This document shows positions 1 through 64,000 of a stretch of 64,000 bases of DNA, one piece after another. How positions within the stretch are numbered: the first letter of the stretch is position 1; every line of letters starts with the position of its first letter. The stretch is from Heterotrichella gracilis (taxonomy: Eukaryota; Sar; Xanthophyceae; Tribonematales; Xanthonemataceae), in NCBI GenBank assembly GCA_032358255.1, contig JAULBX010025830.1, positions 124,001-188,000 of the forward strand. Direction: 5' to 3'. Under the pieces are notes generated by a model. That model did not search any database, had not been told where the DNA came from, and was given only the letters and a program-made list of their open reading frames with translations. The translations under genes and the position numbers were made by a program.

Positions 1-873
1 TTGCTGATGTGATCAGCCAGTCTCTGAGATGGCAAGCTTTGTCGAGCTGTGCACATGGCCCAGCTCTTTTTCGTCAAGGTAAGATCAGTGGCGATCGGCA
101 CTTACAAAAGGCAGTGCATGACCATGCAAGTGCAGGTGCGCAGCAACATGCCCCTCATACATGAAGCCTTGCCCACACATACACCAGTGCATACCATGCA
201 ATATAAATTCATGTGCAAGCGCCACGACAGGCGCACAGTCAGCAACTAGTATTGCACTCACATCAACGTGATCCACAGCCAGTTCCTTGAGCTTCTGCGC
301 CCATGCCTTGACCGAATACTCTGAGCTCACATCCACCTGGGTCACCACCAGCTTGCCATGGCTGCTGGACGAAGTTGCAAGCTCGTTGAGGGCTGTGGCG
401 TTGCCAGGGGTGCGCACCGCTGCGTAGACTGTGTTGTCATTGGCGAGGAGCTCTTGGACCAACTGCAGGCAAGCAAGGGAGCGTTTGAGGACATGGACAG
501 ACTACTGTAGGGTTTAGGCAGATAGGGTTATAGGGTTTTGAGAACATGGACAATTTGCAGGACAAAAGGCCCATATGCATATGCATGCATTGTGTCCACT
601 GTGTGCAGCATGGGGCACTTTACCAGGACGAGTGGCATCGTGTTTAGGACAAGGGTGTTGGTGCGTCTTGCAAACCCACCGGCACAAACGACAAGCAATT
701 AAATAGCACTGCATGGGCAGGCACCATCGTCGAAAGGAAGTGAAAACACCAGATCACTTGCTACGGCATGCCACAGATGCCAAAGGCAGGTTGCCAAGAC
801 TCACCGCCAGTCCAATGCCACGGTTGGCCCCAGTGACGATGACGGTCTTGCCTGTGATTGTGCTTGAAACCAT
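1..873 (-). CDS. short-chain dehydrogenase/reductase, 5' part (SDR1)
   Basis: This is the start of a classical SDR oxidoreductase, cut by the left window edge. Exon 1 (805-873) gives ATG and 23 residues with the Rossmann motif TGANRGIG, which binds NAD(P). Exon 2 (262-462, 67 codons) begins LVQELLANDN and ends HVD at a GTGAGT donor. Positions 1-261 are intron, and the exons with NNAG and YxxxK lie outside the window. The exons match the complete paralog at 53773-55474 almost word for word. Exon 1 has the same length, and exon 2 is six bases longer because it has extra serines. The substrate cannot be told; carbonyl-reductase-like SDRs are the nearest group I recognise. The role is probably soluble, as no targeting peptide is seen. 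The call is firm for family and weak for function. Confidence 0.85.
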
Positions 874-1025
874 CGCTGTGTTGTTATGGGACACTGGAGA
901 ATGAAGCAGAGGAAGGGAGTGGGTTATCAAGAGGCGAGGAGACAGGGGTACAGGCTAGTCAGGCGAGTGCCGAAAGGAGGTTGAAGCAAATCTGAGTAGT
1001 TTACGAGAGTGCTCAAGTTTGTTCC

Positions 1026-1033
1026 TTTATATA
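1026..1033 (-). promoter_or_regulatory. TATA box of SDR1
   Basis: The minus strand reads TATATAAA here, 153 bases before the SDR1 ATG. SDR2 has the same octamer at exactly the same distance. The preceding ~35 bases (about 1034-1070) also align between the two genes (GCTGTCG.CGGCCTT), so the core promoter was duplicated with the gene and kept. Confidence 0.75.
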
Positions 1034-1329
1034 CGTTTGTTGTAAGGCCGACGACAGCGCGTCCACCCGCGCTGTTTTAAACCTGCCCTCACTCTCTACC
1101 GAGTCTCTACACACGGCCATGCATATGCGGCGTTGTGGCCAAAACCGGTTACGTAAAACTTCGACACACTTCCAACCTGGGCAACACCCTGAAGGGTTTT
1201 TGCCGCTCCAGCCCTGTGCAGAACCTCATGCAACTCTATTGCTAAACGGCACACGTAGTTCTGATGCAAAATTTGTTGCGAAGCGGGGCTTAAGAGCAAA
1301 GAAACTGCCGCGGGCGATGCATGCAGACT

Positions 1330-1760
1330 GTATTGCAAGGATGCCATGGCGAGTTGTAACAACGCCGCGCAAACGCTACAAGGTGAGCGCCGGTTCAAAC
1401 AGGAAGGATTAGCACTGGGACGCAGCATCAGAGTATGGTGAACCCGCTTGTTCCCGTGGTACAGGCATGCACGAGTGTGCATGCACCAAAATGCATGCAT
1501 GTCAATGTGCAGATGCATGCATATGGGCAATCACCTGAACCTCGTGCCGCTAACCAGTATCCACTCCGCTTCAAGCTGTGGTATCTATACAACACCATTG
1601 CGCTGCCCAATTCCTCGGGGTTGTTCCACCCTGCCTGGTCCATCCCCACCACGGCATCCAGCACCACACCCCACCAGTCTCCCTTGGCACCAGCCCTTCC
1701 TGTACCTCAGCCAGTGGCAGCAAAAAGAAGAGGAATAAACCCTGCACTGAACTGTGGCGA
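1330..1760 (+). repeat. copy A of a ~430-bp dispersed duplication
   Basis: This stretch is a diverged copy of 7820-8250 (copy B). Shared blocks include ATGGTGAACCCGCTTGTTCC, the ATGCATGCAT-rich segment, GGGCAATCACCTGAACCTCG and CATTCCAGCACCACAC-like sequence. Copy B lies at the 5' end of the membrane-protein gene. Copy A has the same ATG (1435) but no downstream exons and no TATA. It looks like a decapitated duplicate of a gene 5' end, not a mobile element: no terminal repeats or coding capacity are seen. Confidence 0.7.
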
Positions 1761-2334
1761 GCTTTGTTGTCATTGTGACAAAAACACACTGTATTTTGAA
1801 ACTCAGTGGAGGTTGTAGCTATTACATACGGTACCCGATACAGCATGGTGCCCAGCATACGGTAGTCTTATCCAGACACGCACAGCCTGGTCAGTTGCAA
1901 CGCTCACAGTACAAGTGGAGTTTGTAGAACGTTGAAAATTAAAACACAATACACACCAAAAAAACACAAAAAGGTACGGTACCAGGTAATTTGAATGCGG
2001 GGTCACCAATAGTCATGCCTGGCAACAATGGAAACATGTTCGGGAATGTTATCCACCAGGAGTTTGCGAGTGAAACCCCAATAAGCTTGACTGAGCACCA
2101 TGGTTCAATGTACGGGTCCGACTGAGCTCTTATGAAATTTAACACAGTGTGGGCACTGACAACGTTGTGTCTAATGTCGCCAAGCTCCCTTTGAAGTCCT
2201 ATATATAGGTGAGAGAGATGCCGTAATATTCTGTAAAAGTTCACAGTGTTGGGGGCTACAATGTAGATGGTGCTATATTTCTACTGAGGACCCAAAATTG
2301 GCAGCACCTGCGATCCAGCCGAACATTGCACAAA

Positions 2335-7002: not shown

Positions 7003-7916
7003 GGGCGTGCCAGGTGACGGCCAGCCAGGCGCGGTGGGGTGTCACAGTAGACTCGTTATAAAGGCTTGTTCTGCAAAGGTGGGCAACTTGTCACCAGTAC
7101 TGTAAGCCATAAGTCAAAAGGGCGGGGTGGTGCTTGTGTATAGGTACTTCAAGCCCAGCGTCCGGTGCAGTGCCTGGGGCACCGAGAGTGGCATAAAATG
7201 TATAACAGCGTATCACTGCGCAAACCTGCGTCTGTTTAGGGGTGCAGGTGCAGAGTTGGCTGGCTAGGTTCACGGAATCTGGCGTGCTAGGGCTACCCTG
7301 AGGCACATAGCGCTTCGGCTGTGCTGTGCTAGCACATGTGAGGTGGGCGTTGTCAATGCCAATGGTGAAAAATATTGAAGGCGCACTGGGAGGTCATGCC
7401 ACCGTGCTTGCAAAAGCGTTGCAGAAAACAGGGCAGCTGGATCCACCTGCTCGAGGCTGACGGGGTGCAGCGTCGTCGTTTAGCCTGGAATGCCTTGTCA
7501 GTGGACCAGCTGGCATACACCACCTGGCAGAACGTCCCTCCCCGTGAAAACCCCACACCACCTCACCACACACAAACCCCCCACACACCTCACCACAACG
7601 GTGGACCCACCACGGAGTGCCCACAACCTGGGTTGAAGGACCAGGGCACTTCCAGTACACTTATACCGTATCGCTCTCAATAAATACTACTCTACGTCAT
7701 TGGTGTTTCACCAAATACTGTACTTCAAACAGTGTACAAATCTGCTTGGGGTTGTTTTGATGGCCAGCGGGTGTTATCTTGGTTGCGCCAAGCTGGCAAA
7801 GGTGCGAGCCAGGTGCCTGCAAGGATGCCATGGCGAGTTGCATGCCGCGCAAACGCTGCAAATGAGGGCCACTTGAGGCAGCACAAATCAGCACCGTGTT
7901 TTTGCAGTAGCAGGAG
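7003..7916. other. divergent intergenic region between GH10-like and membrane-protein genes
   Basis: This region should carry both promoters. It holds the 5' part of repeat copy B (from about 7820) and no convincing TATA box for the plus-strand gene. Open frames such as the one around 7375-7683 show no motif or codon pattern that I would trust. Confidence 0.5.
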
Positions 7917-8250
7917 ATGGTGAACCCGCTTGTTCCCGTGTTAGCAGGTACGCACGAAAGTGTTTGCACCAAATGCATGCATATGGCCAAAATGCATGCA
8001 TGTCATTGTGCAGATGCATGCATATGGGCAATCACCTGAACCTCGTGCCGCTACAGCCACACTACCAGTATCTACTCCGCACCACTTGATGGTATCTATA
8101 TAAACTCAGGGCGCTGCCTATATCCTCGTGGTTGTTTCACCCTGCCAGGTTCACCCCCACCACGCATTCCAGCACCACACACCACCAGTCTCCTTGCCCC
8201 CAGACCCTCCTGCACCGCTGCACCCTGGCATACGCTCTAGGGTGAAAACG
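7820..8250 (+). repeat. copy B of the dispersed duplication (see 1330-1760)
   Basis: This is the gene-associated copy, spanning the proposed first exon and first intron of the membrane-protein gene. It contains TATCTATATAAAC where copy A has TATCTATACAAC, so any core promoter here was lost in copy A, or gained in B. Confidence 0.65.
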
Positions 8251-10461
8251 AGAACATACCACACAAGACATGTGCAGCTTGATCCCCCATCCCGACGTGC
8301 ATCCTCTCCCGGGATCCTCTCTCAGGCCGTGTGCCCCCAACCCATCCAACAAACGAAAACATATCTCCTACTGTCCATACCCCTCGCGCTCTCTACCGGT
8401 GTTTACACTTTAGGGTTTAGGTTTTAGGGTTTAAGGTTCCTAAACACCACTCCCCCTGCCTCCCACTGCCCAGGCTACCTGTTCACGTATTACAACACCA
8501 AGAAGAGCGAGGAGCGCAAGGCGCAGATAGAGAGGATAAACGAGCAGGTGGGTGGGTGGGGTGGGTATGTGCATCTGGGATTGTGGGTGGCGGTGTGGGT
8601 GTGAGTGCGTGTGTGGATGTGGGTTTGGGTGACAGTGGCGGTGGAGGTGGGGGTGAGGAGTGCACGTTCATCAAGTTTGGGCAGACTTGATGCACGTAGG
8701 TAGAACAAGGAGCTGATTACCACTGGCTGAACCACACACCCAGCAAACCACATAATCACCATCGACAGCTGTCGCCACGCACACCCACCACCCACCACCC
8801 CCACGCCCCCCCAGGTGAAGGAGCTGTATGGCCCCCTGCTGGCCACCCTCAACGCGTCAAAGTCCTCATTCGATGCCATGGTGCGCCAGCACTCGCCCGA
8901 CGGCACCCTGCAGACCTTCCTCAGGGAGCGCAAGGACCACCCAGAAGGGGTGGTGGGGCAGGCGTACAGGTGGGAACCTACCCTAGGGTGTTGACAATGT
9001 GCGCGGACCCTAACCCATGAATCCCGGACCCCGCATGCGCTCAGGGCGGGGTTGCAAGCTGTCCTCCAGGCGCTCAACAGCTGCGTAGCAAGCATATCGT
9101 GGACACTTAGGCCCTGACCTGGTAAAGTTAAACCCTGCATGTGCGCAGGATATCGCGCTACTCCAGGGATGGCCGCACTGTACATTCCTTGTGGACCCTA
9201 GACTCTACATCATGAACCCTGGATCTAGCATACTTGCAGAAGGTGTATGCAGGGGGTGTTCAGCCGGTGAACAAAGGCACCGCAGCCGTTTATGAACTTC
9301 CAAGCTCTGCTAATCTTCACATGCATGCAGGGTCCCATTCCTCGATTCTGAAATCCTAAATCCTGCACGCCCGTAGGACGTGGATGCAGGAGGTGCTGCA
9401 GCCCCTGAACGACCGCGGCGCCAACATGATCGTGGACCCTAAACCCTAAACCCCGCATGCCTGCAGGACGTGGATGCAGGAGGTGCTCCAGCCCCTGAAC
9501 GACCGCGCCGCCAACATCATTGTGGGCCATGCCGACCTGCTGGAGTCAAGTACAGTGGAGCCAGTGCTGCTGCAGCTGGTGGCGCATGTGGCGGCCTACA
9601 AAGTGGTGCTCAAGCAGTGCGTAAAATAACCCTAAACCCTAGACCCTGGTCATTGTGCATCATCATCATGACACCATCACGTGCTCACCATCGCATCATG
9701 ATGATCACCATGGTTATAATCAAAATCAGAAACAGAATCACAATCGGGCCCTGGACTCCAGCAAGCATTTTTTTGGGTATGGAAGTCGTTACCGTATGTA
9801 TCAGAACTTTACCCTCCCTTATTTGGGTACAAGTTCCAAGCAGCGACAGTGGCATTAGTATCCTCCTCCACGCCCTGCCGTATGCCCTGTCCCAATGCTA
9901 TTCCGTACCCTAAGCAAAACCCTATTCATGCGTCCTGCCAAGTGGCGCTACAGTGACATCATTGCCTGGTCCTCCGTGCCCTACCCCAATGCCACACTGT
10001 ACCCTAGCCAATACCCTAACCAAAGCCCCAAACCCTGAATAATACCCTGACCATGCATCCTGCCTGTGGCGTGACGGTGACATCTCGGCGTGGTCCTCCG
10101 TGTCCTGCACAAACCAATCCATTACTTCAAGCATTACCCTGCTCAACCCTTAAACAAACCTCTAGACCCTAAATAGTCCCCTACTCCACTGCTCTGCCAG
10201 ATGGCGAGACGGCAACATTTCCGCATGCTCCTCCGTGCCGTGCCCCAAGGCCACCCTTGTACCCTAAACAAAACCCTAGGGCCTAACCCTACATGCATAC
10301 CTGCCAGGTGGCGCGACGGCGACATCTCGGCCTGGTCCTCCGTGCCCTTCCCCAACGCCATCCTGGGCTACGTAGAGAAGGAGTTCAGGAGCATCAAGCG
10401 CAGTCAGGCAAAGCTGCTGGGGATAAAGAACGGGCAGGCATCCCCGCTGTCAAAGCTTTAG
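7917..10461 (+). CDS. single-pass membrane protein of unknown function
   Basis: Exons 8474-8547, 8815-8969, 9467-9616 and 10308-10461 are well supported. They join in phase and end at TAG 10459-10461. The 5' part is a model: ATG in exon 7917-7947 spliced to 8204-8398, giving 252 aa. No ATG is available in the 8101-8398 frame, so an upstream exon is needed. Residues ~63-82 (TYLLLSIPLALSTGYLFTYY) form one transmembrane helix. It is preceded by an Arg/Pro-rich, transit-like stretch and followed by a charged helix (KKSEERKAQIERINEQ) and the motif LYGPLLATL. The remainder is probably a helical soluble domain. I have a vague memory of similar LYGPL-containing hypothetical proteins and cannot name a family. 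A TATATAAA at 8095-8102 falls inside the proposed first intron, so the start could be wrong. A TGTAA at 10969-10973 may end the transcript. Confidence 0.6.
9041..9434 (+). repeat. three decayed copies of exon 4 inside intron 3 (membrane-protein gene)
   Basis: The exon starting at 9467 (ACGTGGATGCAGGAGGTGCT) is echoed at about 9376-9432 (nearly identical, ending in CCCTAAACCC), at about 9236-9290 (diverged) and at about 9041-9085 (heavily diverged). Each copy begins at an acceptor-like AG, as the true exon does. Confidence 0.8.
9930..10260 (+). repeat. three decayed copies of exon 5 start inside intron 4 (membrane-protein gene)
   Basis: The true exon at 10308 starts TGGCGCGACGGCGACATCTC. Copies lie at about 9938-10005, 10066-10115 and 10192-10250. 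Each keeps the CTGCCAG-type acceptor, the GACGGTGACATC core and GGTCCTCCGTGCC. CCCTAAAC or CCCTGAA motifs separate the copies. Confidence 0.85.
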
Positions 10462-11404
10462 GGCGCAGGGCGTGGGTGTGGGTGGGGGCGCGGTGGACAT
10501 GCGTAGGGTTGGTGGGGGTTGGGTGGATGGGAGTTGAGCGGGAAGGAGGGGGGCATTAACCCATTTACGTACAAGGAATAAGGAATGCCATTGTTGTACA
10601 AAGAATGACGCTGAATGATGGTGGCCACCAGATACTTTATAGGAAAGTACCTGGAATAATTTACTGTGAAATGCAGGACCAGTCAGCCTGAGGGTGTGGG
10701 GCCACAAGTGCACATACCCTCTTGACATTCAACATGTAGGCAATAGGACCTTTGCATGTTCTGAATGGCATTATAGTGCTGGAACAATAATACAGCATGC
10801 TACAGTATGTACAAAGGTTTAACCATGAGTCAGCGCAATAGCTCATTAATGCAAACGCCTGCGCTCATGAATGCAATTCTCGGCAAGAATGAATCATGAA
10901 GCTGTTACAGGTCATCGCACGACTGCAGCAGCTGCTGCAGTTCATCAACTGTGGCAGCTGCACACACATGTAAATGGTTGCCTGGCAGTATGTGCCTGCT
11001 GACACCTTGGTAATGCTTGGAAACAGGGGGCGCCCAAACACTACATATAGACTGGTGAACAAGCTGCAGGCCTGCGCTATCTGCATGGCATACAAAATGG
11101 AATTCAATTCGGTGGCGCCTGGTGACAGGCTATAAATCAAACTAGTAGTCAAAATCCAAGTATATTAATATAATTAAGCCTTAGACCAAAGCTTAGACCA
11201 AAGCTTAGACAAAGCTTAGACCAAAGCCTTAGACCATAGCCTTAGACCAAAGGGATAAAATGGGGAGCACGAAAGTGCGGTAAGCGGCACGACTGGTTGG
11301 CCACCATCTGCCACACTGGAAACAGTGTCAGTTAAGCCTTGGCTCTAAGACTGGGGTGAGGCATACCCAGACATGCTAACCTGGCTTCAAAGCTGGAAAG
11401 CAAA

Positions 11405-11436
<32 letters not shown>

Positions 11437-12184: not shown

Positions 12185-15100
12185 CTAGTTGGGCGAGGGC
12201 AGCGCGGTCCACAGCGGCCTGCCGTTGACTGGCTGCAGCGAGCGGTTGTTGGTGCGCGTGCCCGATGGGTAGCGCGCCCACACATCCTCGTAGCGCTGGC
12301 TGTCGTAGCCCTGCACCGTGGCGCGGCCCAGGTCCTCGGTGGTGGCCAGGGCGCGCTGCAGGGCGTCAGCCTGCGGTGGGGAGTGGGGGGTGAGGAGGGG
12401 GTGGTGTGGTGGGGGGTGCACAGACCCGTGGTGGCAAATAATGCATTGCAGCATTCCCGACTTGAATAATGATTGACAAATCTTTTATTCACCATGGTAT
12501 GTCTTATCTATCATCCCCTTCTGATCATATATATGAGCTATATGATCTGGCTTTGTTGCCGGTATGCATGTAATATATAATATATAATATAATATATATA
12601 TGCAGGAGGATATAAACACATGCGCAACACTAAAAGACGATGGCTTGCCAAGCCTAGGCAGGATGCGGTGCCTCAGCGGGCAAGCTCACCTGGTCGATAT
12701 ACAAGTACGGCGGGTTTTTGAACACGGCCTATTCAAACCGACTATAAAAATTTAATAATGCTCACCTGGTCGATCGACACATACAGCGGCTTGGTGAATA
12801 CATGCCAGAACACACCCTCAGTGCATGGGGGCGTGGTGAGGCTGCCTGGGTATGATATGAAGGCCTTGTCATCGGGGAACAGGCTCATGAGGTCAAATTG
12901 CTGGGAGGGGGGGAGGAACACGGCGGCCTGAGGAGGGGGGAGAAAGCTAGGTTTGAATACAAGGAGGCACAGAGAGGGAGGTAGAACAGAAAATAATATG
13001 CAACTGCAAATTTGTTACTGTCAACGTAAAGAAGGACAATCAAATGACAAAATGCTACGTTGCTCGGGGAGGGGCGGGCATGACTGTGGTACACATGGCT
13101 AGATGGGACTGCACATGCGAAGGTGATTGTTGTGGCTTGAATGGTTGTGGGCCAGGCTTCAGTGCGGCCCATTGCAATTGCTAGCGTGGCCTTTACTCAC
13201 GTCTTTGCCGGTCTTGGTGGGTATGCTGTCAAAGAATGGCTGCAGCACTGGGTTTGGCTGCCATGGGTTCTCTGGGTTGTACTCCAGCAGGATTCCAAAC
13301 ACCGCCAGGCAGGTGCCGTTCTTGCACACCGAGGGTGCGTTGGGGGCCTTGGGGTCAACCTTGGTCACCAGGTGCACCTCCATGGGGGCTAGGCTGCCTG
13401 CGGACGGTTTGGGTGGGGTGGGTGGGTGATGGCGTGGGATGGGTGTGTGGTGCGTGGGGGCCATTGGGGTTGCGTGCAGTGGGAAGTGATGGAATTGTGC
13501 GAACGGGGGTGCACTTGGCCGCCAGCTGCATATGCATGAGGGCCAGGCTGCCTGTGGACTGTGTTCGGAGTGCAACAACTGCCAGGATACCATGTATGCA
13601 GTGCCAGCAAATTCATGTGGTCCCTGCCGATGTGCCCCATGAGTGACAGTGCACTGCATGGAGTCTGCATGCAGGCCAGCATGAGCTCCCACTACGCGCA
13701 ATGCATTATGCTTGTGTTGCCCCGAGGTGGCGGCCTCACTGTTGCTCCGGCAACTTAGGGACCTCGGTCACAAAATGGTTCGAATATGTCCCTCACCGTT
13801 GACGATGTGCTCCGACACCGAGTGGAAGTGGAACTGCAGTGGTACCAGGGGCACGCGCTGCAGCTCACTCAGCTTCACAAAGTCCTTCAGGGTGCCCAAG
13901 TACTCCTCGCCTGCGCGTGGGGATGAAATTGCATGCTTATCACATTTTACACATTTTAAATTATATACTTTACACCGTAACATACTTCAGCACTTCCAGC
14001 TGATACCAATGAGGGTGCCTAGGTACTCCTCGCCTGTGGCACAAGGCGAGGGGTAATTTCCCATGCTACTGTCACAACTAGTACAGTGCGGCGGCATGCG
14101 CTCTTACCTGCTGTTGTGACGTAGCTGGTCCCCGAGTTTGGCACGTTGTCCCACTCCACCTGCAGCGAGTGGCCGGTGTTGAAGTAGCGCACGTTGCGCG
14201 CCTTGCCAAAGGCAATCTGGGTGGAGATACCCTGGGGGATGCTGCCAACCACGCCGCGGCCTGCGGGAGAGAAGATCACGAGGTGAGGAAATATTCTAGA
14301 TACCCTACATGCCATAAGATGGGGGGGCGGGAGGTGTACCCTAGATCCTGTACATGGGACCCCGAGGGATGAGTACCATCCCTGTACCTGTCAGCATCAC
14401 CTTCCAACATGCGCGAACTCACTGTGCATACCCACCCCACGTGAACCTCGTCATGCTTGCACCACATGCACAAATCCATCCGCAACCCGATCCCTGAATC
14501 CTTGATCCCTGCGCCTTGCCCCCGTTCACTTGATGACACGGGGATGTGCCACTGCAGAGACACCTACGTGCACACACCCGCCCAATGCACGCCGCTGGGG
14601 CTGCAATTCTACCCACTACAACATGCACAGCACATGGCCATGCCCCAGCCAATTGTGCAGCATGCAATCACAACCCATAACCCAGTTCCCGCATTCCCCC
14701 CACGCACTCACTTGATGACACAGGGATGGGCGACTGCAGGGAGCCCTCAGTGCACACGCCCGCCCAGTCCACGCCATTGGCGCGGTAGTTCCACTTGTCA
14801 GCTGGCGCCGATGGTGCTGGTGGCGGGCGGGATGGGGCGGGTGCTGGGGGTAGGGGTGGGGAGGAGAGGCGGGGCAGGTCCCTCCTGGGTGGGGCGAAGT
14901 CGTTGGGGTTGAAGTCCCAGTCGGACTACACACAGCACAGGAGTCAGGGTTTGGGATTGGGATGAAGATGACAAGGTCTCAGTCCCAATTCGACTGCAGG
15001 CAACACAGGCAATGTTTCGGGTGATGGTTACACAGTTGCGCTTTGTGCCATGCTGAGGGCCATGTGCCATGGGCCATGCGTCATGTCATGTTGCGCCTGG

Positions 15101-49000: not shown

Positions 49001-50457
49001 AACCGGGAAAATGGAGGGGGGGGAGGGCGGCGGCCATGGCAGATTAACCATTTTCACGTGTGGCATGATTCCCCGTGTTTTGAAGGGAGTGAATAAGAAT
49101 TATAAGGAAAACCATAAAGATACAATAAAAAAGAAGGGGCGAATGTAGAATGACAAACTGTGCGACTGAAAGGAGTCTTTTGGCGCAGATGATCTTCATC
49201 CAGAGCAATTGCAACCCCGAGGCGCCCCGCACCAAGGTGGTGAAGCAGCTCATTGCCGAGAGCACCAGCGTCCCCGTGCACTCCTACGGGCACTGCCTGC
49301 AGAACATGCCGGAGGGTCTGCCGCACGACATTGAGGTGAAGGCCGACAAGATGGGCCAGTACAAGTTCTGCATCACCATGGAGAACAGCAATGTGGAGGA
49401 CTATGTCACGGAAAAGGTGAGGAGAGGTGGTGATGGTATTGCAATAAACAGAGACAAACATCAGAAACTGTGGAGGAGGGAATCGCGGATACATCTACAG
49501 CATAAACAACAATGACACTTTTTCTAGACATCCCCGCTCCCCCCGCGGTGTGGCATGCGTTCATGGTGGGCTGCGTCCCTATCTGCTATTGCGCCATGTA
49601 GATAAAGAGCCACGTGCCCGCGCTATCCTTCACTTGGCATGTAAATCATTAATGGGTCTTGCATTTAAATTTGGACAGCACAATCGTGACGATCCAAAAC
49701 ATATTTTGTAAACTGAAACCCACCATTACCCGCAGGTGTGGCACGCGCTCATGGCGGGCTGCGTGCCCATCTACTACGGCGCCAAGGAGATTGAGAGCCA
49801 CGTGCCCGACCCCCTTGCAGTCATCAACTACCACGAGATTGAGGACGTGCCCACCCTCATCCGCCTGGTGGAGCACCTGGCCTCCAACCGCACAGCCTAC
49901 GAGGAGCGGCTGGCGTGGAAGGGCAAGCCGGAGCATGAGCTGCAGGTAACTGAATATAAAGTAGAGCAAATGCCTGTACAGTAAATCAAATGCAAGGTAA
50001 ACAGGCGTGCTTGATAACGCTAGGTGTTTTAGGCATCAACGCGTTTAAACAACCCTCTCCGATTTTCTACAAATCGGAGAGGGTTAATAGTGGACATCAA
50101 AGGGTACAGCGACGTATAGTTGCAGGGCTTGTCATGGATGCAAAGAGACCATGATTAAATGCCAATTAGGGAGGTAAGTATATTCAGCTAATCATAATAG
50201 TCGTAGGTGTTTGGCATACTCTGCTTATGTTGCAAAACGGAACACCCCCCTTGCTGTAGGCCTCCTACGTCAACCTTGTGGAGTATGACAGGCTGGGCCA
50301 CACCAAGTGCAGACTGTGCGAGCTGCTCATGGAGTGGAGGATCAGGGACGGGTATGCGGCGGCAAGGAACGGGAGCGGCGGGGGCGGTGTGGGTAGTGCG
50401 CGCAGGCGACTGCAGGAGCCACGGCCACACAGGGCAAAGCTGCGCGTGGTAGTGTGA
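46038..50457 (+). CDS. GT10 alpha-1,3-fucosyltransferase A, Golgi type II
   Basis: Eight exons (46038-46335, 46739-46979, 47229-47383, 47683-47759, 48594-48779, 49189-49416, 49736-49945, 50260-50457) join in phase to 530 aa. A signal anchor near residues 30-55 (HLAVVNTAACCLLLCHLSLS) gives type II topology, followed by a basic, Gly-rich stem. The GT10 donor motif is intact: KFCITMENSNVEDYVTEK, then VWHALMAGCVPIYYGA. MTYR before it is the upstream conserved box. The C-terminal KCRLC is the CxxC seen in plant FucTs. It should move fucose from GDP-fucose onto glycans, probably N-glycans, in the Golgi. Tandem partner: 57442-60689. A TGTAA at 51150-51154 may end the transcript. Confidence 0.92.
46336..46412 (+). 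repeat. two echoes of the fucosyltransferase A exon 1 donor
   Basis: ACCAGGTAGGTCAC at the exon 1 end recurs near 46370 (ACCAGGGAGGTCAC) and 46405 (ACCAGGTAGGTCAC). The copies are separated by CAAACCCTAAACCCTAAT-type tracts. The last copy is still a usable donor. Confidence 0.9.
47219..47248 (+). promoter_or_regulatory. hairpin over the fucosyltransferase A exon 3 acceptor
   Basis: CGGCATGCAGGA and TCCTGCATGCCG are perfect inverted arms of 12 bases around a six-base loop. The acceptor AG (47227-47228) lies within the 5' arm, so folding would hide it from the spliceosome. Confidence 0.6.
47810..47960 (+). repeat. two echoes of fucosyltransferase A exon 4
   Basis: TACTGCGGCACCCCGCCCAA to CAGCACCAGGTGAGGGGCCA (about 47816-47872) copies the second half of exon 47683-47759 plus donor. 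A shorter copy starts near 47921. TTTAGAG and TTTAGG tracts precede each. Confidence 0.93.
48147..48545 (+). repeat. four tandem echoes of fucosyltransferase A exon 5 start
   Basis: GTGATCATGTCCATGGAATC starts at 48157, 48212, 48336 and 48459 before the true exon at 48594. The unit is about 125 bases except for the first, which is cut short. Every copy has its own CTGCAG or GTGCAG acceptor. The three long copies run to a TAA where the exon reads TAC. Confidence 0.97.
48905..48990 (+). repeat. echo of fucosyltransferase A exon 5 end
   Basis: GCGACATCCACAGGGAGGTG and AAAGTACCCGTGGGATC plus the donor GCGGTGAGGGGAGGGG copy the second half of exon 48594-48779 into the following intron. Confidence 0.93.
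49545..49635 (+). repeat. decayed echo of fucosyltransferase A exon 7
   Basis: GTGTGGCATGCGTTCATGGT and AAAGAGCCACGTGCCCGCGC match the start of exon 49736-49945. The copy has an in-frame TAG and no donor. Confidence 0.9.
50051..50085 (+). repeat. perfect 15-bp hairpin in a fucosyltransferase A intron
   Basis: AACCCTCTCCGATTT and AAATCGGAGAGGGTT flank a five-base loop in the last intron. The function is unknown. Confidence 0.8.
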
Positions 50458-51726: not shown

Positions 51727-51873
51727 ATAGGCTGAAAGACTTCCCAGAAACTCAGTGACCATACAAAGCATACACTACACAGTCTCCGAGGCACTGCCGG
51801 GCTGGGCTTAACTCTGTAGTGTATGCTTTGTATAGTCACTGTCAGTGAGTTGTTGAGAAGTCTTTCAGCCTAT
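51727..51873. repeat. long imperfect foldback (hairpin) element
   Basis: The left arm starts ATAGGCTGAAAGACTTC at 51727. The right arm (51814-51873) is its reverse complement over about 55 bases, with a few mismatches and one six-base insertion. The spacer is about 32-35 bases. It could be a MITE-like foldback or a small-RNA precursor; nothing in the sequence decides between them. Confidence 0.8.
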
Positions 51874-52125: not shown

Positions 52126-52485
52126 TCACCGCCACCTGGCACCACACCAGCTCACCACCTGGCAGCACACCAGCGGCGCCATGGCCAGGTTGGCCCACGC
52201 CCTGGACCCGCCCTGTGCCCGCGCCAGGTGCATGTGGTGTCGCTCGAGCCCCGCAAACCGCGCGCCTGCATGGCCACCGCAATTGCTGCGCTGCGCTGCA
52301 TGAGGTTGCTCAGGAGCTTGCTGCCCAGCTGGAGCACCACCTGGGGGTGGGGGGTGGGGATAGGCAGGGGTGAGATTTGTGTTCATAGAAAAAGGGAAGG
52401 TGGCAAGGGATGGCGTGGACATTGGCGGCGCTGCGCTGCATGAGGTTGCTCAGGAGCATGCTGCCCAGCTGGAGCACCACCTGGT
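52126..52485 (-). pseudogene. relic exon, possibly EcfT/ABCI12-like, with one echo
   Basis: The minus strand reads VVLQLGSKLLSNLMQRSAAI and then AVAMQARGLRG. That pattern resembles the AMxARGF/LRG region of EcfT-type energy-coupling transporter proteins such as plastid ABCI12. The following ERHHMHLARAQGG lies in another frame, so the reading is broken by a one-base shift or an unseen splice. A partial copy (about 52425-52485; LQLGSMLLSNLMQRSAA) precedes it in an echo-like arrangement. I find no other exons of such a gene here. The family call is tentative. Confidence 0.35.
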
Positions 52486-53612
52486 GACGGGGGAGCAAGG
52501 GGGGTGATGCCATTTTAGAAACGGGAAGCGCCGTGGAGTACGTGTGGTCATCGTTGCGAACGTAACCTCTACAGTGGCTTTGCATTGGTGGGCTGACAGT
52601 GCAGGATGAGGTGTGGTGGCCAGAGCCATGCAGGCTGAAACCTGTCCGACAACGCATGCCTGATGGGTCAACGGATGGCATGCCACATGTGGCTATGCAC
52701 GCATAACCCTATGACGATCACAACTGACTTGAGCAGTGCATCATACCCAAAGTGGGAGGCAGCAAGCCACATCTCTATATCCCGTCTTCACACCTTGCCA
52801 TCAATCTATTGGCTTTGCTGCAAAAGTTGCTGCAAAGCTGCATTGAGGGTCTCACATCCATGGCAGCTTAAATCTTCCTCATCCATGGCATCTGTAATCA
52901 CCAGGGGAGTGGAACAAGGCATGGGAGAATGGGAAGCTTGCAGTAAGAGTGTAAAGCACTTCCACACACTTCAAATCAGTCAAGACAGTTCCTTCCACCC
53001 TCCACTTACCTTCCAGCGGACCCCGAACATCACATACAACATGATAAAATATCCGGTAGACATAAAGAAGATTCCTTTAACAACAAACAAGGTGTTTCTA
53101 ACCTACTCGGGCTGGTGCTGAACTGCAGACCCCAGCTTGACAAAAAAAGGTGCCTTTCTGGAACTGCTTTTCCAACTAAAAGGGGTGTTTGTTTCGTTCG
53201 TTCTTATGCATCACTGTGGGTTTTGGCAGCGTTCATAGAAATTCGGGCACGGCATCTATGGACGTGGGGTGCCTTGTGGGCAGCACTAATATGTTGGCAC
53301 AATGCATGCATGCATAACCCATGCCGTGGCACGAACGTGGCTACCCTAAGGTAGGTTCAGTGGCTAGCACTACTTCTTGCACCGTTTGGCTCCTGCTTCA
53401 GCAAACGTTGTAAGCCGTGCCTGGAGATACAATCCCTCCCTCGGGGTGTTGCGAGGTTTCACCTCGTGCACTGGAACACGGTAGAGCGTTTACATAAGCA
53501 GGTGCCGTGCAGGTCCCCTCCGCATGGCGTTTTTGTAGAGCCCCGAGTAGAGGGTGAGCGTAGGGTCTGCTAAAACGCCTGTCGACACGCTGTCGCCGGC
53601 CTTGCAAAACGC

Positions 53613-53620
53613 TATATAAA
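53613..53620 (+). promoter_or_regulatory. TATA box of SDR2
   Basis: TATATAAA lies 153 bases before the ATG at 53773, the same spacing as in SDR1. The preceding block (about 53580-53612) is conserved with the SDR1 promoter. Confidence 0.8.
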
Positions 53621-53772
53621 GGGAGGCACTCGACACTTTTACAAACTCCACCCACCGCTCTACTTTGGCACCCACTTTTGACGACTCTCTCTGAACCCCT
53701 ACCCCTTGTGCTCGCAAGCTTTTTCAACAGTACCCTTCCTTTCAATCTCAACAAGCCCACCACAACACAGCG

Positions 53773-55474
53773 ATGGTGTCAAGCACAATTTCAGGCAAGA
53801 CCGTCATCGTCACTGGGGCCAACCGTGGCATAGGGCTAGCGGTAAGTCTTGTGGCATGTTTTGGCATCGGTGGCATCTGTTGCACCCACCTGCAACTTCG
53901 CTCATGGACAGGTTTGATACTACCTTTATGTTTAGCACTCTTAATATGTCACTTGTGGGTAGAGCTCGACAAGACTTGCCAGTGTCCTGCATAAACTGAC
54001 ATCATGTCTGTGACATGCCCTCAAACCGTAGATCCTAATCGCTTAAACCCTACAGCAGTACTAGTCTGTCCATGTTCTCAAACGTTCCTTGCTTGCCTGC
54101 AGTTGGTCCAAGAGCTCCTTGCCAATGACAACACAGTCTACGCAGCGGTGCGCACCCCTGACAACGCCGCAGCCCTCAACGAGCTGGCTTCCAGCAGCCA
54201 TGGCAAGCTGGTGGTGACCCAGGTGGACGTGGGCTCTGAGGAATCTGTCCAGGCATGGGCGCAGAAGCTCAAGGAATTGGCCGTTGAACACATAGATGTA
54301 AGTGATGCGAATTTAGGCGTTGGGTGCTGCGCCATGTGCTTGCAGCTTGTACATCATGATCAGTAGATAGTCAGCTCATAATGAGCATTCGCACGATATG
54401 TTCTCGAAGAATAACCTTTACTGCTTGCATTCAGCTGCAAGCAAAGCATCTGCATTATCCGCATGCATGCAGCTGCGCACTCAAACCTGCCTGCATATAA
54501 ACATAGGTCCTTAGAGAAGAAATGCAATTTGGTTCATTGCTGACTACTAGGTTATGCAGATAATATGGGTAGTGCCTTGGTGTGTCATTAGGTTTTGTGG
54601 CTTCCTGTCTGATCACGTCAGCACAAGTCCAGTCAAATGTGTGTGCATACGCAGAGTCACTCACAGCAGTATTACTAATCACTTGTTCAACTACTAACCT
54701 TACTTTTGCCTACCCAGGTGGTGATCAACAACGCTGGCGTCCTAGTCGAGGGCTTCACAAAATCCTTCGACACCATTGAGGTGGATGACTTCCTGTCCTC
54801 CTTCAAGGTCAACACCCTTGGGGCATTTGTGGTCACCCGGGAACTGCACCGCGCTGGCATCATAGGCCAGCCAGGAACCATCATCCTCAACGTCTCCACC
54901 CTCCTTGCTTCAATCTCGGACAATGACTACAACAAGTTTGGGTAAGTCACCCCTTCACATTTCCCATCAGAATAATCGTCGTGATGCCCGCATTGTTGGC
55001 ACCCAATTTGGCAACCCTGGGATGGCAGCCAGTCCCCAAGGCAGCATTGGTTTTCTCACAACGTTGTGCAAACATGCTGATTGCAGTAACTACATGCGCA
55101 TGTATGGGGCAAGTTTTATTTTTGTCAACAGCAAAACATTCAGCTCCCCATGTGGGGGAAATTGTGCCCAATTTGCAATTTTTTGCCCACTTTATTGACT
55201 CCTTTTCCCTCCCCGCAGGATCATCGCCTACCGTTCCTCCAAGACTGCCCTCAACATGCTCAACAAGCATGTGGCCCTAGCCCTAGCCAAGGACAGCATC
55301 ACCTCCATCGTGGTCAGCCCAGGCTATGTGAAGACAGACATGTCGGGCAACCCTGACGATGGAATTGAGCCCGAAGAGTCTGCCAAGGGACTGCTGGCAC
55401 TGGTGGCCAGGGGGGCAGAGGAGCTTACACATGACGTGCTGTACAGCTATGATGGCACTACCTTTGCGTGGTAG
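53773..55474 (+). CDS. short-chain dehydrogenase/reductase (SDR2), complete
   Basis: Four exons (53773-53841, 54103-54297, 54718-54941, 55219-55474) join in phase to 247 aa, the usual classical-SDR length. The Rossmann motif TGANRGIG, the NNAG motif, the catalytic Ser in NVST and the active-site YRSSK are all present, so it should be an active NAD(P)-dependent oxidoreductase. Carbonyl-reductase-like SDRs are the closest group. No signal peptide is seen. It sits between two GT10 genes on the same strand, and its close paralog SDR1 lies 53 kb away in inverted orientation. A TGTAA at 56156-56160 is a likely poly(A) signal about 680 bases downstream. Confidence 0.93.
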
Positions 55475-57441: not shown

Positions 57442-60400
57442 ATGGCAGTCATAACCCACCTTCTCGTATTATTACTGTCCGTCCACCTCCTAGCCAGCCA
57501 CCTCCAGGCAGCGCCTCAAACCCAACATGGGCGGGGCAATTCTACCAACAGCAGCAGAACCCTACAGGGTGTACAACGCCGATCATCACTAAGGCACCGC
57601 CACCTAGCAAGCTTCCACGGGCTCCGGCCCACACACACTGAGCACCACCAGCAGGTTGGTGGTGGTGGTGGCGGAGGCGGTGGGATCAGTACAGGCGGCG
57701 GCGGTGGTGGTGATGGCGGCAGCAACGGTAGAGGTGATGGTGGTGGTGGGCAGAGTACAGGGGGTGGCGTGCGTCGATTAGCTCTCGATGAGCAGCCGTG
57801 GAGGGACCGATTTGTATGGCCAGATGATCTGGACTGGAGAGACAGGTGGGTGACATGCATTGCTGCTGGATCACCTGCAGTGATTTAGAATCATCTATGT
57901 AGTGATTTGCATTGTACTATGAGGATTTGCAGTGATCTGGAGTGAAATGGACTGGAGCGTCGAGTTGGTGGCAAGCATCGTCTGTGAACCATCTTTACAA
58001 CAACTTGACAATCGCGGTGTGCATGGCGCATCTAAATATAAGGGCAACATAGGGCAACTAAAAGGGCATCTCTGAATAAAGGGCAATCCACCGCTTGCCT
58101 GCAGGACTGCCGTGCGTGATGCTGCCTTCAGGCGTGAGGTGGTGGTGGGTGTGATGACGGGGGACTACTTTGGGGGGGTGGCGGGGGAGCACCAGGGGTG
58201 CGAGCTGGCGGGGCGGCCATTGCAGTGCCGCTTCACTGAAGACAGAAGCGCGTTTGCAGGTGGGGTAGGGGAGTTTGTGGCTTCACTAATGGCTTGACTT
58301 GTTCAGGCTTCAGGGGTAAGGGCTTGTCGTTGCACTGCAGGTTGAAGCATGTTTGCAGGTATGGTGCAAGTCATGTGGCGATGGCCGCACATGCCACATG
58401 AACATTCGGCGCGCTACCCATCTTTCTACCCTTGCTCCAGTGCCCATGCTACCAACGCGCCATGGTACCACGCACCCCACTCTGAAACCTGCCAGGTTTC
58501 AGCCAGATTCAGAATATTTATTATCAACCCAAAAAAATTTCCCTTTTAGTTCGATTTCCGACAAAACCCCGCCATGCCTCCTCCCATGGCGTGGTCACAC
58601 TCTAACGGCTCTTATTTACCCCCTTGTAGGCGCCGACGCGCTGTGGTACCACGCCCCCGACTTCTGTGGCACTGAGGTGGTGCAGCAGGGCAACGTCATA
58701 GACCTGGGGGCAAGGGTGCAGGAGGGGGAGAAGCCTGTGGTGCACTTCAAGGGACAGCACCAGGTGGGGGTGGGGTGGGGTGGGGTGGGTGGGTGTTGTG
58801 CTCGAAGGGATCTGGTGCGCAGGGGGCAAAAACATCTGACTGAGTGTTAAAACAAGAATGGCGGTGAATTGGTGATCGCTCGGCCAACCCGCGCAAGTGC
58901 TGTTGCGGGCCCCTTGCAGGCCGCACCCCATATCGCATCACCTCCCATGCCACGCTACCTGTCTGTTCTCCCCTTCCCCGCACACCCCCTGCAGATCATC
59001 ATGTCTTTGGAGTCAGCAGAAATCCTAAACCCTAATCCCCCTCCCCATCCTGCTCCCCATCCATCCCCTGCCCTTTCTCCCCCTGCAGATCATCATGTCT
59101 ATGGAATCAGCAGGAACCCTAAACCCTAAAGCCCCCTCCCCATCCATCCCTTCCTCTTTCCCCACACTACAGGTCATCATGTCAATGGAGTCAGCAGAAA
59201 CCGTGCCCTGCCTTGAAAACGAGGAGTACATGCGCCAGTTTGACATCACAATGACCTACCGGAGGGACTCCACCATACCCTCGCCCTACTTCACCGCAGC
59301 CACCCACAGAGCCATCATGCGCCCACCCAGGGTGGATTTCGAGGACAAGAAGGACGCAGTGCGTGTGCATCGTCAACAGTGGCACATTGGAGGACAAGAG
59401 GGAGTTGGTGGTGACTGAACTTGCGGAATCCTTGCCTGCCATGGAACAACCGCCATCATGCGCCATATCATGCGGCTGACCAATCCCCATCTGTATCCAA
59501 TCCAAGTGCTGATCATTGCCTGTTGATCATTTCCCACAGATCATCTTCCTGCAATCCAACTGCCTGCCCTGGAACAACCGCACCGCCATCGTGCGTCAGC
59601 TCATGCAGCTAAGCACCAGCATCCCCGTGGACTCGTTTGGGATATGCCTGCACAACACTGGGGATCGCAACATCTCATCGGACCACGAGGACAAGCTTGA
59701 GGCGATGAGCAACTACAAGTTTTGCATCGCCATGGAGAATGGCAATCTGGAGGAATATGTCACGGAAAAGGTGAGGGGAGCGGATGGCACAGCTGTTCAA
59801 CATCTTACACATGCCAAAACGCCCTTTTGTCAGCCTATAATTTATTTCAAAGTGGCATCCCGCCATGCTGCCTGTCTTGTGCTCCCCCACAGGTGTGGGA
59901 TGCACTCGTGACCAGCTGCCTGCCCTTCTACTACAACACCCCTGACATTGAGACCCACTTCTATGAACAAGAACTACAGATGGAAACAACCAATTGCAAT
60001 GCAGCTTAGATTAGCCCACCTCATGACCAAGCTTTGTAAACTAGCATCTTTCTCGCCAACATCCCCGCAGGTGTGGGATGCGCTCATGGCGGGCTGCCTG
60101 CCCATCTACTACGGCGCACCCGACATCGAGACCCACCTGCCGCACCCCTCAGCAGTGATTAACTTCCACCATATCATGGACGTCCCCGCGCTCATCAGCC
60201 TCCTCACCCACCTGGCGGCCAATCGTAGCGCCTACGAGGAGCACATGGCGTGGCGCACATGGCCCGAGCACAGACTGCAGCACTCCTACCGCCAGCAGCT
60301 AAAGACCATGCAGGTGTGTGGGGTGTTGGGTTGGGTCAGGACTAACCAGTCCCTGCTAAATTGTTTGGGATTGCTGCAGGATCAGGGTCACTAGTAGTTC

Positions 60401-60689: not shown

Positions 60690-61727
60690 TCATGATGATC
60701 CTCAAGTTGGGGCCTGGGTTTCCCTACACGTGCAGTGTGTTGGGATCTGGCATTGCCCAATGGGCATAGAGGATGACATCGCATTGTGCCCACTGCAGCA
60801 GCTGATCATGATGAAGAAACTTATGGTCTCAAATGCTCATTCAATGAGAAGTTCTGGCGTTCAACGTGCAACTTGTCTGTATGATGTAACACTGTCCACA
60901 ATTGTAGTTTGTTTGATTCATGTTACAAGGAGCGAATGATTCGCTTTCATAATGTTCTGACATGTCACATGCGGTTCGTCTGATCATGCATGGTCAGTGA
61001 TCGAGTATCGAGTATCATACCGCAATGGCGCACCCTGCGCTTTCACACCCTCAGCATGTGGGGGATGTGCACCACCCTACGGATTATTAGGGATGAAAAA
61101 GTTTCAAGCTGAGTCAGAATACCGTTTAACGCTGCTCCCAAAATGCTGCTTTGACATGCAACCGCTGACAAGCATGCTGAACAAGAACATCCCGGAACTT
61201 GTGCTGTAAGCTCTGCAGTCACTGACTTGGTAATCACTGCCTAAGGCTATAAACACTACGTAGTAACAAATGCTGCTGACGGCTGAGTGAGATGCGTACT
61301 TCTAACAATTTTCTTATACAGAGAGGTCAAGTGCGACTATAAAACAATTGAGACTACCTGCTGCATGCGTGTAAATCAATAATGATCACCACCTGGTGAC
61401 ACCATCGATCACACTAGCACTCCAATCTAATACTTGCACTGCAACGCTGCACATGCACCTAACACCCCAACAATTCTCTGACAGTTCTCCTACCAACATA
61501 TGTCAACATCTGAAGGGAAATACTAGTCAAACGGCAAGATGTCATACCGCGTAGCTGCTGGCATTGCTGCAACCCAAACTGGGCCACCACCCCGCTACCT
61601 CTTTGCATAAAAAATAGAAGCGCCCCAGGCACACATAATCCACACAGCTTCTTGATGTGGCGCCGGTAGTGCACAACCCCAGCGTGTCCCAGGAACCCTA
61701 AAACCCTCCACCCTTGCGTCCCAGACC
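60690..61727. other. convergent 3' region, fucosyltransferase B / patatin
   Basis: Plus-strand TGTAA signals lie at 60886-60890 and 61205-61209. No gene is seen. Confidence 0.55.
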
Positions 61728-63907
61728 CTAAACAACCTTCTGGGGCGCGGGCACACCAGGCACCAGCGTGTCCCACGCCTTGCTCAGCGCCGCGTACAGC
61801 CCGGGGCGCCGGTACCGCTCAAAGTCGGGGCCGAACCCGCCCGCCGCGTCCACCCGCTCCGCGTACTTGTACCCCGTGTCAATCAGCTGCAGCACCTCGC
61901 CGTAGCCCCGGAGCTTGAGGAAGTCCAGGCGCGAGAACTGCATCTGGTCGTCGTTGAAGTAGTCCACCACAAAGGCCTGGCCGTTGCACTTGAGCAGCGG
62001 GGAGTTGTCGCCGTACCTGCAGGGGCAAGGGGTGTAATAAGATTGAGGTGATGATGCCACATGCGCCTCATTCGATCAAACCTTGAAGTCACAATCCCAT
62101 CGCTATGCACATACACAGCACATGAAAATCATCAAAGATTGTCAGGTTGCACATTATGATTCCTCTCATTAATTTCATACTCATTTGTTTACTCTTGTTC
62201 TGCAACCCACCAGAAGTCTGCCAGGCTGCCGTCGATGCAGCGCTTGCCCCTGTACCGCATGGTGGCCCTGCCATCCAGGAACCAGGGCACGTGCGCAGAG
62301 GCCATGCAGGCCTCAATCAGGTCCTCCTTGGTGGCAAAGTCGTCTGCGTACAGCTGCTTCAGGCTGGGCATCTCTGTGAATATCATCTTGACCCTGCCCT
62401 GGCACAGCTCCACCGCGTTGTCGGGCAGCAGCTGGTCCAGCCACTGGCGGATGAGGGGGCCCCAGATGCCTGCAAGGGGAGGAGGTAGGATTTAGGGTTT
62501 GGAGTGTAGGGTTTCAGGCGGGGGGACAGCATGGGAGGGACAGAGGCTCAAAAACATTTAGGAGCCCACTTCTTATGCCTGTTACTGGGCCTCCTTTCCA
62601 TGCCCTAAACCCTAAACCCTAAAGCTGGTTGCGCCCCTCCACATGCACCGCAAACGCTGTGCAGCGCAGTGCTCATTCAGTGCGGCTTACCTACAACGCC
62701 GCCCTTGCGGTTCCAGATGTCGTTTTCGATCGCCAGCTGGTATGCCACTGTGACGGCTCGCTCCGGCTCCACGTTGCAGGCAGTGAGTACTGCCACCAGG
62801 GAGCCAGCGCTGCTCCCTATCAGCTGGGCCTTCCTGATGTCAAAGTGGTGCATCATGTATTTCATCACACCTGCACAGGCAACAACGTGTCAGCAATAGC
62901 ACGGCAAGGGCAATTTTTTTCACCACAGAGGCAATGACCTGTCCTGCCAAGCCTGTGATAAACGCCATTGTTCAGTTAAACTGCTGCAACGACCGTGACA
63001 GGTATGGAAGGGAAGCTAATTTCAGTCTACTGCAAGCAGGCACATGCTCGATAATATTTGCAATTGCATAATCAATCCAGTTGACCATACCTAGTTCCCA
63101 AAAGAAGAAGATGCCGCCGCCAGCGATGCTCAATAAGGGCAGCTGCTCTGTTTCCTCCTCGTCCGTGGACCATGTCAGCAGGTTGAGAGGGAACGGTGGG
63201 CCTGGGCTGACCTCCCTACTTGGCCCAGGCGCTGCCTCTGCTGGTGCTGCCACTGATACTGAAGCTTGATCCACAATAGGTGTGGAGGTCCCTGGTTGTG
63301 CGTCTGCTGGAGGGCCCAGGAACAGGCTGAGGGGGAAGCCTGCACCCTTGGGCTGTTCCTTGGAGGGAGTGAGGACTTTTGTCGTCCCATGCACACCTTT
63401 TGCCTCAGACGTGCTCTCTTGCTGCTCTGCTTTGTCTGGAGAGCCGGAAAATAAGCTGAGGGGAAAGCCAGCCTTGGTGGGCTTGTCTGAAACAGCAGGG
63501 CTGTCTGGTAGTGGCCGTGCCTCAGCTCCTGACACTGTAGCTTCCAGGCTGCTAGTACTGGCTGGAGATCGCCAGAAATAGCCCCTCACCGTCCCCAGCA
63601 ACGACCCACTGTTACTGGAGCTGGGTTCGCTGGCTTCCTCCGTTGCGATCCTCTCGACTGACGCCCGGTCCTTGGTGCCAGTGGCCTTGCTGCTGCTTGG
63701 GTTGTTTTGGTTTGAACGCTGCTTGGAGAAACTGCTGAACAGGTCGCTTCCTCTGAACGCGGCAGCAGGCGGGCAAAGCTGGCGAGGGGCTGGTCGAAGC
63801 ACGGAAGCCCTTTGAAAGCCATGGGGCTTCACACCAGCAGGCCGTGGAGGTTGAACCGCTGCCATCCGACCCGTTGTAGTTGGAGTGTTTGTGATCTGAC
63901 CCGCCAT
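61728..63907 (-). CDS. patatin-like phospholipase, probably chloroplast-targeted
   Basis: Four exons (63091-63907, 62691-62870, 62211-62469, 61728-62016) join in phase to 514 aa. ATG 63907 is chosen; the longer frame begins with TTG. The catalytic dyad is present: GSSAG holds the nucleophile Ser (~293) and DGS (~411) the Asp, with SIAGGGIFFFW as the oxyanion-hole glycine turn. It should hydrolyse acyl esters of membrane lipids or triacylglycerol. The first ~255 residues are a low-complexity, Ser/Pro-rich extension with basic N-terminus, consistent with a plastid transit peptide. They contain three copies of a FPLSLF-type motif. The stop TAG is part of GTTTAGGGT, a telomere-type motif. Confidence 0.9.
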
Positions 63908-64000
63908 AACACCCGACAACTTGGGTCAGGGCAGGGTATACAACAAACACAGGCAAAGTAGTTAAGCAGCAAGGCAAGCAAGTGTAGCTCTGCGATCACT
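63908..64000. other. patatin gene upstream edge
   Basis: Only the 5' UTR or promoter edge is present; no TATA box is visible. Confidence 0.4.

Follow-up and report, generated by a model that had tools for sequence, protein, structure and literature searches.

Exon-edge duplications and telomere-type repeats at their joins in the introns of a 64-kb window of Heterotrichella gracilis

The stretch of DNA analysed here (the window) comprises 64,000 bases of Heterotrichella gracilis (contig JAULBX010025830.1, positions 124,001 to 188,000), with 55% G+C and eukaryotic genes rich in introns. All results refer to this one window. Its introns carry direct copies of the edges of their own flanking exons, splice site included, and the joins of many of these copies hold tracts of the telomere-type heptamer TTTAGGG/CCCTAAA. 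We consider it somewhat probable that introns grow here by local direct duplication across splice junctions at the repair of staggered breaks, that about half of the joins gain telomere repeat by addition or capture, and that the products then decay. The exon copies had been pointed out in an initial annotation, made from the letters of the window. The observation is real and stronger than that annotation could show, and its interpretation needs the telomere part to be added.

The gene models used for placing the copies are sequence-based only. An exon finder trained on 21 exons read by eye and run on the coding strand of each gene gave 90 exons, 10 of which were removed by hand as weak or as resembling copies of exon edges (two of them, at 38056 and 48459, were discarded for the latter reason) and 2 were trimmed. 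The core set after hand editing contains 80 exons (14,517 nt) and 68 introns (26,395 nt).

Local self-comparison reveals 59 pairs of direct repeats that reach 30 bits and lie no more than 500 bp apart. The next two bins hold 0 (501-1000 bp) and 1 (1001-1500 bp), while 30 dinucleotide shuffles give on average 0.03, 0.1 and 0.03 pairs in these three distance bins. Against the 59 direct pairs stands 1 inverted pair within 500 bp, which, judged by position, matches one telomere tract to another. When the telomere tracts are masked, 58 near pairs of at least 32 bits are still present, so that the tracts do not account for the copies. The repeat pairs group into 39 clusters. Their identity, taken from one listed pair per cluster, is 70-100% (94% or less in 34 of the 39), which agrees with the annotated range from near-identical to barely visible. 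A splice junction is crossed by 28 of the 39 clusters, compared to a mean of 11.2 and a maximum of 21 in 2000 shifted placements. Exon sequence is present in one copy only in 34 of the 39 clusters, and in 0 of the 39 are both copies mostly exon; most copies look like decayed pseudo-exons within old introns. The copies continue unspliced through the junction and are thus not derived from spliced mRNA. Their direct orientation, short distance (copy spacing is mostly about 70-210 bp) and contiguous unspliced DNA spanning the junction are those of tandem genomic duplication. Because unspliced sequence has simply been duplicated in direct tandem, break repair or template switching fits better than the unspecified re-copying of the initial annotation.

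The annotation had proposed alignment of introns against their own flanking exons with shuffled introns as control. Within the window, such an alignment at score 36 finds the own flanking exon copied in 22 of the 68 introns, compared to none in either control, 340 shuffled introns and 340 comparisons with exons of other genes; at score 30 the numbers are 28 of 68, 0 of 340 and 1 of 340, respectively. At score 34 and with at most four copies taken per intron side, the alignment yields 37 copies, whose exonic parts measure 17-86 nt; 30 begin or finish within 2 nt of the exon edge. The score-34 copies are located in 25 of the 68 introns and in 7 of the 9 intron-bearing modelled genes. The remaining two modelled genes (4 and 3 modelled introns) have no exon-edge copy, so that the earlier wording “nearly every gene” goes too far. 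Copy-bearing introns (33 of 68) are longer than the others (median 403 versus 286 nt, P 0.0009), and copies and tracts together make up 5,147 of the 26,395 intronic bases. As copies add length and long introns have more room for them, the difference, which is partly built in, fits the annotated intron growth without proving it.

The tracts themselves occur far beyond chance. At a score of at least 10 the window contains 73 tracts of TTTAGGG/CCCTAAA, the telomere heptamer of plants and green algae, compared to 1.2 in ten shuffles, and 15 scrambled heptamers of equal composition give 0-9 tracts each. Matches to a telomere pattern number 67 against 0.30 expected, and those to a longer pattern 44 against 0. 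We assume TTTAGGG to be the telomere repeat of this species; the heptamer is described as the ancestral green-algal telomere type (PMC8226300). Introns hold 60 of the tracts, 13 lie outside the gene models and 0 in the 14.5 kb of core exons, which corresponds to densities per 10 kb of 22.7, 5.6 and 0, respectively. At least one tract is found in 30 of the 68 introns.

The tracts are concentrated at the duplications and in particular at their joins. Duplication clusters contain 38 of the 73 tracts, whereas circular shift over the non-coding sequence gives 11.8 (P 0.0005); for introns alone it is 36 of 60 against 17.2 (P 0.0005). Counted by cluster, 19 of the 39 hold a tract against 8.4 (P 0.0005), or 18 against 11.9 in introns alone (P 0.02). 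The tract lies inside the join in 13 of the 27 tight-join clusters (2.7 expected, P 0.0004) and in 4 of the 11 loose-join ones, one overlapping pair being excluded. With tracts of score at least 9, the exon-side breakpoint is within 15 nt of a tract for 18 of the 37 copies, compared to 7.9 for random places in the same intron, and for 12 of 26 breakpoints against 4.7 (P 0.0002) when one copy is taken per intron side, which limits the effects of arrays. Target duplication is thereby tied to a telomere tract at the insertion. By eye, 18 of the 19 tract-bearing clusters were judged: 11 have a join tract but no outer tract, 6 have an outer tract and 1 is ambiguous. The 11 clusters lean to insertion at the join, although not decisively. 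The continuing local re-copying at exon edges proposed in the annotation stands as a recurrent local process that takes along the splice site and some intron, with copies of many ages; the telomere heptamers at the joins had been overlooked. The duplications and their tracts are as follows.

9028-9528, plus strand: gene M, acceptor-edge copies of exon 9467-9616; best pair 9351-9438 and 9441-9528 (87.5%); join tract 9436-9453.
9883-10364, plus strand: gene M, last exon (10308-10461) copied three times at its acceptor edge, the copies decayed and with telomere-like tracts between them.
14526-14794, minus strand: carbonic anhydrase 1, tract-free donor-edge copy at 14526-14612, 79%; the copied exon ends at 14712.
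19837-19950, minus strand: carbonic anhydrase 2, acceptor-edge copy; join tract 19885-19910.
20028-20137, minus strand: carbonic anhydrase 2, donor-side copy; tract 20069-20086 (TTTAGGG in sense) just before the copy.
23801-23949, minus strand: permease, acceptor-edge copy of exon 23655-23842; join tract 23868-23889.
25480-25819, minus strand: permease, array of donor-edge copies of exon 25776-25946; tracts 25518-25537, 25638-25655 and 25726-25740 between the copies.
30496-30824, minus strand: VPS15-like gene, four-copy donor-edge array with an 85-bp unit; three to four telomere heptamers in most units.
30924-31027, minus strand: VPS15-like gene, acceptor-edge copy of 25 nt, 100% identity; join tract 30981-30995, TTTAGGG-type.
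31861-32066, minus strand: VPS15-like gene, acceptor-side copy, 82%; join tract 31974-31993.
33361-33502, minus strand: VPS15-like gene, acceptor-edge copy, 91%; tracts 33397-33411 and 33492-33511.
36542-36809, minus strand: VPS15-like gene, decayed donor-side copy, separated from the exon by tracts 36618-36631 and 36688-36701.
37929-38287, minus strand: VPS15-like gene, acceptor edge of exon 37796-37992 copied several times; tracts 38012-38036 and 38206-38221.
42754-43094, minus strand: VPS15-like gene, kinase part, acceptor-edge array with a 90-bp unit; tracts 42795-42819, 42826-42840, 42888-42904 and 42976-43008.
43559-43891, minus strand: VPS15-like gene, tract-free copies of the acceptor edge of exon 43459-43609, 95%.
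44279-44621, minus strand: VPS15-like gene, donor-edge copies (44279-44465) with sense TTTAGGG-type tracts, and an acceptor-edge copy (44515-44621) with CCCTAAA-type tracts.
46323-46418, plus strand: fucosyltransferase 1, three 37-bp units, each with the donor edge; telomere repeat after the edge in the first two.
47715-47922, plus strand: fucosyltransferase 1, donor-edge copies about 97 bp apart; degenerate TTTAGGG tract 47877-47922.
48129-48679, plus strand: fucosyltransferase 1, exon 48594-48779 and four acceptor-edge copies; no telomere tract.
49542-49808, plus strand: fucosyltransferase 1, decayed acceptor-edge copy of exon 49736-49945 (in-frame stop, broken AG); no tract.
52285-52493, minus strand: unnamed locus, acceptor-edge copy, 93%; no tract.
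58985-59202, plus strand: fucosyltransferase 2, exon 59173-59358 with two acceptor-edge copies, both of which are joined to a tract of their own (59020-59039 and 59115-59133).
59885-60136, plus strand: fucosyltransferase 2, tract-free copy of the acceptor edge of exon 60071-60313, 82%.

The two fucosyltransferase genes illustrate the arrangement. The exon of fucosyltransferase 2 at 59173 starts after AG, and upstream of it are two worn copies of its first approximately 30 bases, each with its own AG. These copies end at the AAACC of the exon, continue as CCTAAACCCTAA and then pass into ordinary intron. The corresponding exon of fucosyltransferase 1 has four copies with a different join and without telomere repeat. 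The differing joins, and the presence of tracts only at the fucosyltransferase 2 exon of this pair, speak for separate events in the two genes. Shared ancestry of the copies in both genes was considered and rejected, because each copy is nearer to its own exon, which also favours separate events: at one edge the similarity to the own exon and to the other fucosyltransferase is 0.84 versus 0.77 and 0.82 versus 0.75, and at another edge it is 0.87 to the own exon and 0.73 or less to the other gene. However, the similarity between the paralogous exons themselves reaches 0.85 at the first edge, and conversion between the genes may have contributed. Searches for relatives of the fucosyltransferase found none.

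Based on these data we suggest the following course of events. A staggered double-strand break, or nicks of opposite strands some tens of bases apart, would occur near an exon-intron boundary. Fill-in and rejoining would then place the overlap on both sides, giving the order A-B-B-C, where B is the boundary stretch. In about half of the events the 3' end would first gain telomere heptamers (T), either via telomerase or by capture of a telomeric fragment, with A-B-T-B-C as the result; this order is the expected product of staggered-break fill-in with telomere repeat on one end. The second copy and the tract would turn into intron and decay. The event would be tolerated because the true exon stays whole and attached to one working splice site. 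A wider proposal, which we put forward tentatively and hold to be less than probable, is that telomerase, or telomeric filler DNA, is routinely involved in the repair of breaks at the exon-intron boundaries of active genes, each repair duplicating the boundary and leaving heptamers behind. Exon edges would then be the preferred sites of intron growth, and introns a fossil record of these repairs.

Such a preference can be compared to a simulation in which exon copies are under constraint and about 1.0-1.2 edge duplications are expected per purely intronic one. Duplications wholly within exons would be lost to selection, and wholly intronic ones should survive. This crude simulation assumes a constraint of 0.4 and small indels and applies no low-complexity filter. 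Observed are 34 clusters with an exon copy and 5 without, where about half would be expected (P 2e-6 to 1e-5). The excess has P 0.003 if detection favours edges two to one, and P 0.017 to 5e-5 when the count is restricted to the 28 edge-crossing clusters. Given the crudeness of the simulation, we regard the edge excess as likely rather than firm. Either duplications prefer exon edges, or unseen detection effects go beyond those simulated. A genome-wide excess of this kind would suggest that breaks, or switches of the polymerase, are linked to splice junctions.

Several results weigh against repair with telomere-repeat addition as the single source of the pattern. The breakpoint test weakens with score-10 tracts (10 of 26 against 4.1, P 0.002) and further at a distance of 10 nt with the same tracts (7 of 26 against 3.5, P 0.04). 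No tract is present in 20 of the 39 clusters, thus telomere repeat is not required for duplication. An age link between tract and copy was looked for and dropped: copy identity correlates non-significantly with tract score (Spearman 0.41, P 0.08) and with tract purity (0.17, P 0.49), so these correlations do not establish the birth of tract and copy in one event, and clusters with and without a tract are alike in identity (P 0.87). At least 2 nt in register with the telomere repeat are seen at only about 5 of 17 joins, judged by eye and allowing for decay. Arrays with a tract in each unit, such as 30496-30824, imply later growth by slippage or unequal exchange, which departs from one simple story. 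Finally, target duplications are rare at mammalian telomeric insertions, and the long and frequent ones seen here need an extra reason.

The main rival to break repair with added telomere repeat reverses the order of events. Pre-existing telomere-like tracts would act as fragile or slippery sites, at which the polymerase switches back and recopies without telomerase taking part in the duplication; stalling on the G-rich strand, or annealing of the tract to a short exon match, could be the trigger. We regard this as possible but doubtful. Copying of a tract-bearing unit predicts both an outer and a join tract, as seen by eye in 6 of the 18 judged clusters (e.g., 30496-30824 and 42754-43094), and the growth of arrays of several identical units, each with a tract, requires slippage or unequal exchange subsequent to the first event. 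Tracts also occur without duplication, as 35 of the 73 lie outside any duplication cluster. However, the 11 of 18 clusters without an outer tract do not follow from copying of such a unit, and unequal exchange between tracts cannot yield a join inside an exon, since core exons hold 0 of the 73 tracts. A source of the tracts is also still needed, and insertion at breaks is the known one. A role in splicing is a less likely explanation, and we consider it improbable: tracts would be kept and oriented because CCCTAAA is branch-point-like and pyrimidine-rich, whereas TTTAGG offers a false acceptor AG. The sense-strand orientation agrees with it, with 40 CCCTAAA to 20 TTTAGGG tracts in introns, 13 to 1 within 60 nt of the acceptor and, arrays included, 8 to 1 at acceptor-side joins; at donor-side joins the ratio is 4 to 5. 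These counts, however, are inflated by arrays, the position in the intron is alike for both orientations (P 0.36 and 0.47 when counted by tract and by intron, respectively; P 0.41 in a Fisher test on the nearest end), and splicing would account for direction and retention of the tracts but not for the exon copies. A polarity rule, under which acceptor copies carry CCCTAAA and donor copies TTTAGGG, was also tried and rejected, being non-significant over all intron tracts (P 0.36 to 0.75) with mixed donor joins; the acceptor-side lean to CCCTAAA is retained as a weak hint.

Two further explanations were considered. Introner-like transposable elements, with the matches representing a dispersed element with telomere-like ends, might be considered because introners are reported in green algae among other lineages (PMC9860276), yet we find this very unlikely. 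Once the tracts are masked, no more than 6 of the 29 far pairs that reach 32 bits fall outside the two paralogous gene pairs, and none of them repeats a duplication cluster elsewhere; similar sequence shared by many unrelated introns was not seen within the window. The copies match their own flanking exon and neither exons nor introns of other genes (0 of 340 at score 36), and the duplicated stretches far exceed the 3-9 bp target duplications quoted for introners. Least credible of all, to the point of being nearly negligible, is chance, low-complexity matching or assembly error. Intron sequence is indeed partly simple, and the analysis covers a single window, but shuffles yield almost nothing, the low-complexity filter was on, and most copies are well diverged (the 34 of 39 listed pairs at 94% or less), unlike an assembly duplication.

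The genes that carry the duplications were characterised from eight partial translations submitted to Pfam. Matches above the cut-off were obtained for a carbonic anhydrase (E 1e-29), a permease of the xanthine/uracil type (E 5e-28), a protein kinase (E 4e-16) and, in two genes, a GT10 fucosyltransferase (E 3e-24 and 2e-6). A patatin-like piece scores below its cut-off, and two of the eight translations have no Pfam match. The closest solved structure to the carbonic anhydrase is 3b1b (E 2.9e-35; the runner-up has 2.9e-16), which we take to be a Chlamydomonas enzyme; by itself, this match would make a green alga the likely source. The label VPS15, given in the initial annotation, is a reading of the translation and would suit a kinase followed by a putative WD40-like part. 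In this gene, within 36542-36809, the exon coding sequence reads AAACCCTAG, a telomere-like octamer that may be there by chance or be inherited, and the decayed copy has it too. The labels M, GH and CBM are working names only. Apart from these genes, a piece at 255-1111, which by its translation may belong to the short-chain dehydrogenases, has a second copy in opposite orientation at 53534-54304 (two matches, 73% and 89% identity). A dispersed direct repeat with 76% identity links 1334-1706 and 7818-8216. At 51727-51873 there are two inverted repeats, one nested in the other, 88% and 94% complementary, which resemble a small palindromic element.

A scan of viral contigs for the telomere pattern gave 17 loci. 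These were rejected as relatives, their counts of tracts and near-duplicates being unlike those of the window except for one contig, IMGVR_UViG_3300023179_001117 (L003), in tract density. That contig was put aside because its open frames look like those of a virus of prokaryotes. It has 10 CCCTAAACCC-like tracts in 12 kb, several of its stop-to-stop frames start LNPKxM-like, and the motif may sit just before start codons.

Among the literature searched, by title and opening of the abstract, no description of telomere repeats at exon-edge duplications in introns was found. Duplication and telomere insertion are each already in print (PMC4974935, PMC2246262, PMC7215372), thus the process is not without precedent; their pairing at such density did not turn up in the literature searched. 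The closest case for the duplication is in potato, where one described tandem duplication covers, in direct order, an intron's 3' end, acceptor included, plus the 5' edge of the next exon (PMC4974935). That single event made a new intron and exon, while here 39 clusters are found in 64 kb and the copies decay inside the old intron; telomere repeat is not mentioned in the available part of that paper, whereas many joins carry one here. Tandem exon duplication for alternative splicing (PMC9013439) is likewise local, direct and involves exons, but it concerns whole functional exons rather than partial and mostly decayed edges. Introners (PMC9860276) also change intron content in algae recurrently. 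They are, however, dispersed elements, of which none was found in the window, and the string “telomer” is absent from the main text of that paper as searched.

The closest case for the tracts is that of mammalian interstitial telomeric sequences, which are short, exon-free insertions at double-strand break repair, sometimes with target duplication at staggered breaks and with in-register bases (PMC2246262, PMC7215372). Target duplications are reported there for 6 of 130 loci in rodents, 4 of 25 in primates and 3 of 66 in horse, and about three quarters of the loci have in-register bases at the break. Thus, target duplication is a small minority in mammals, whereas in the window 38 of the 73 tracts lie in duplication clusters, and the duplicates measure tens of bases and span splice sites. 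If the pattern is genome-wide, it would be a visible and datable source of intron growth marked by the telomere heptamer at the joins, and intron lengthening together with the gain of spare splice sites could be tested by counting and dating the joins. Addition of telomere repeat at internal breaks would then be far denser here than in the mammals where it has been described.

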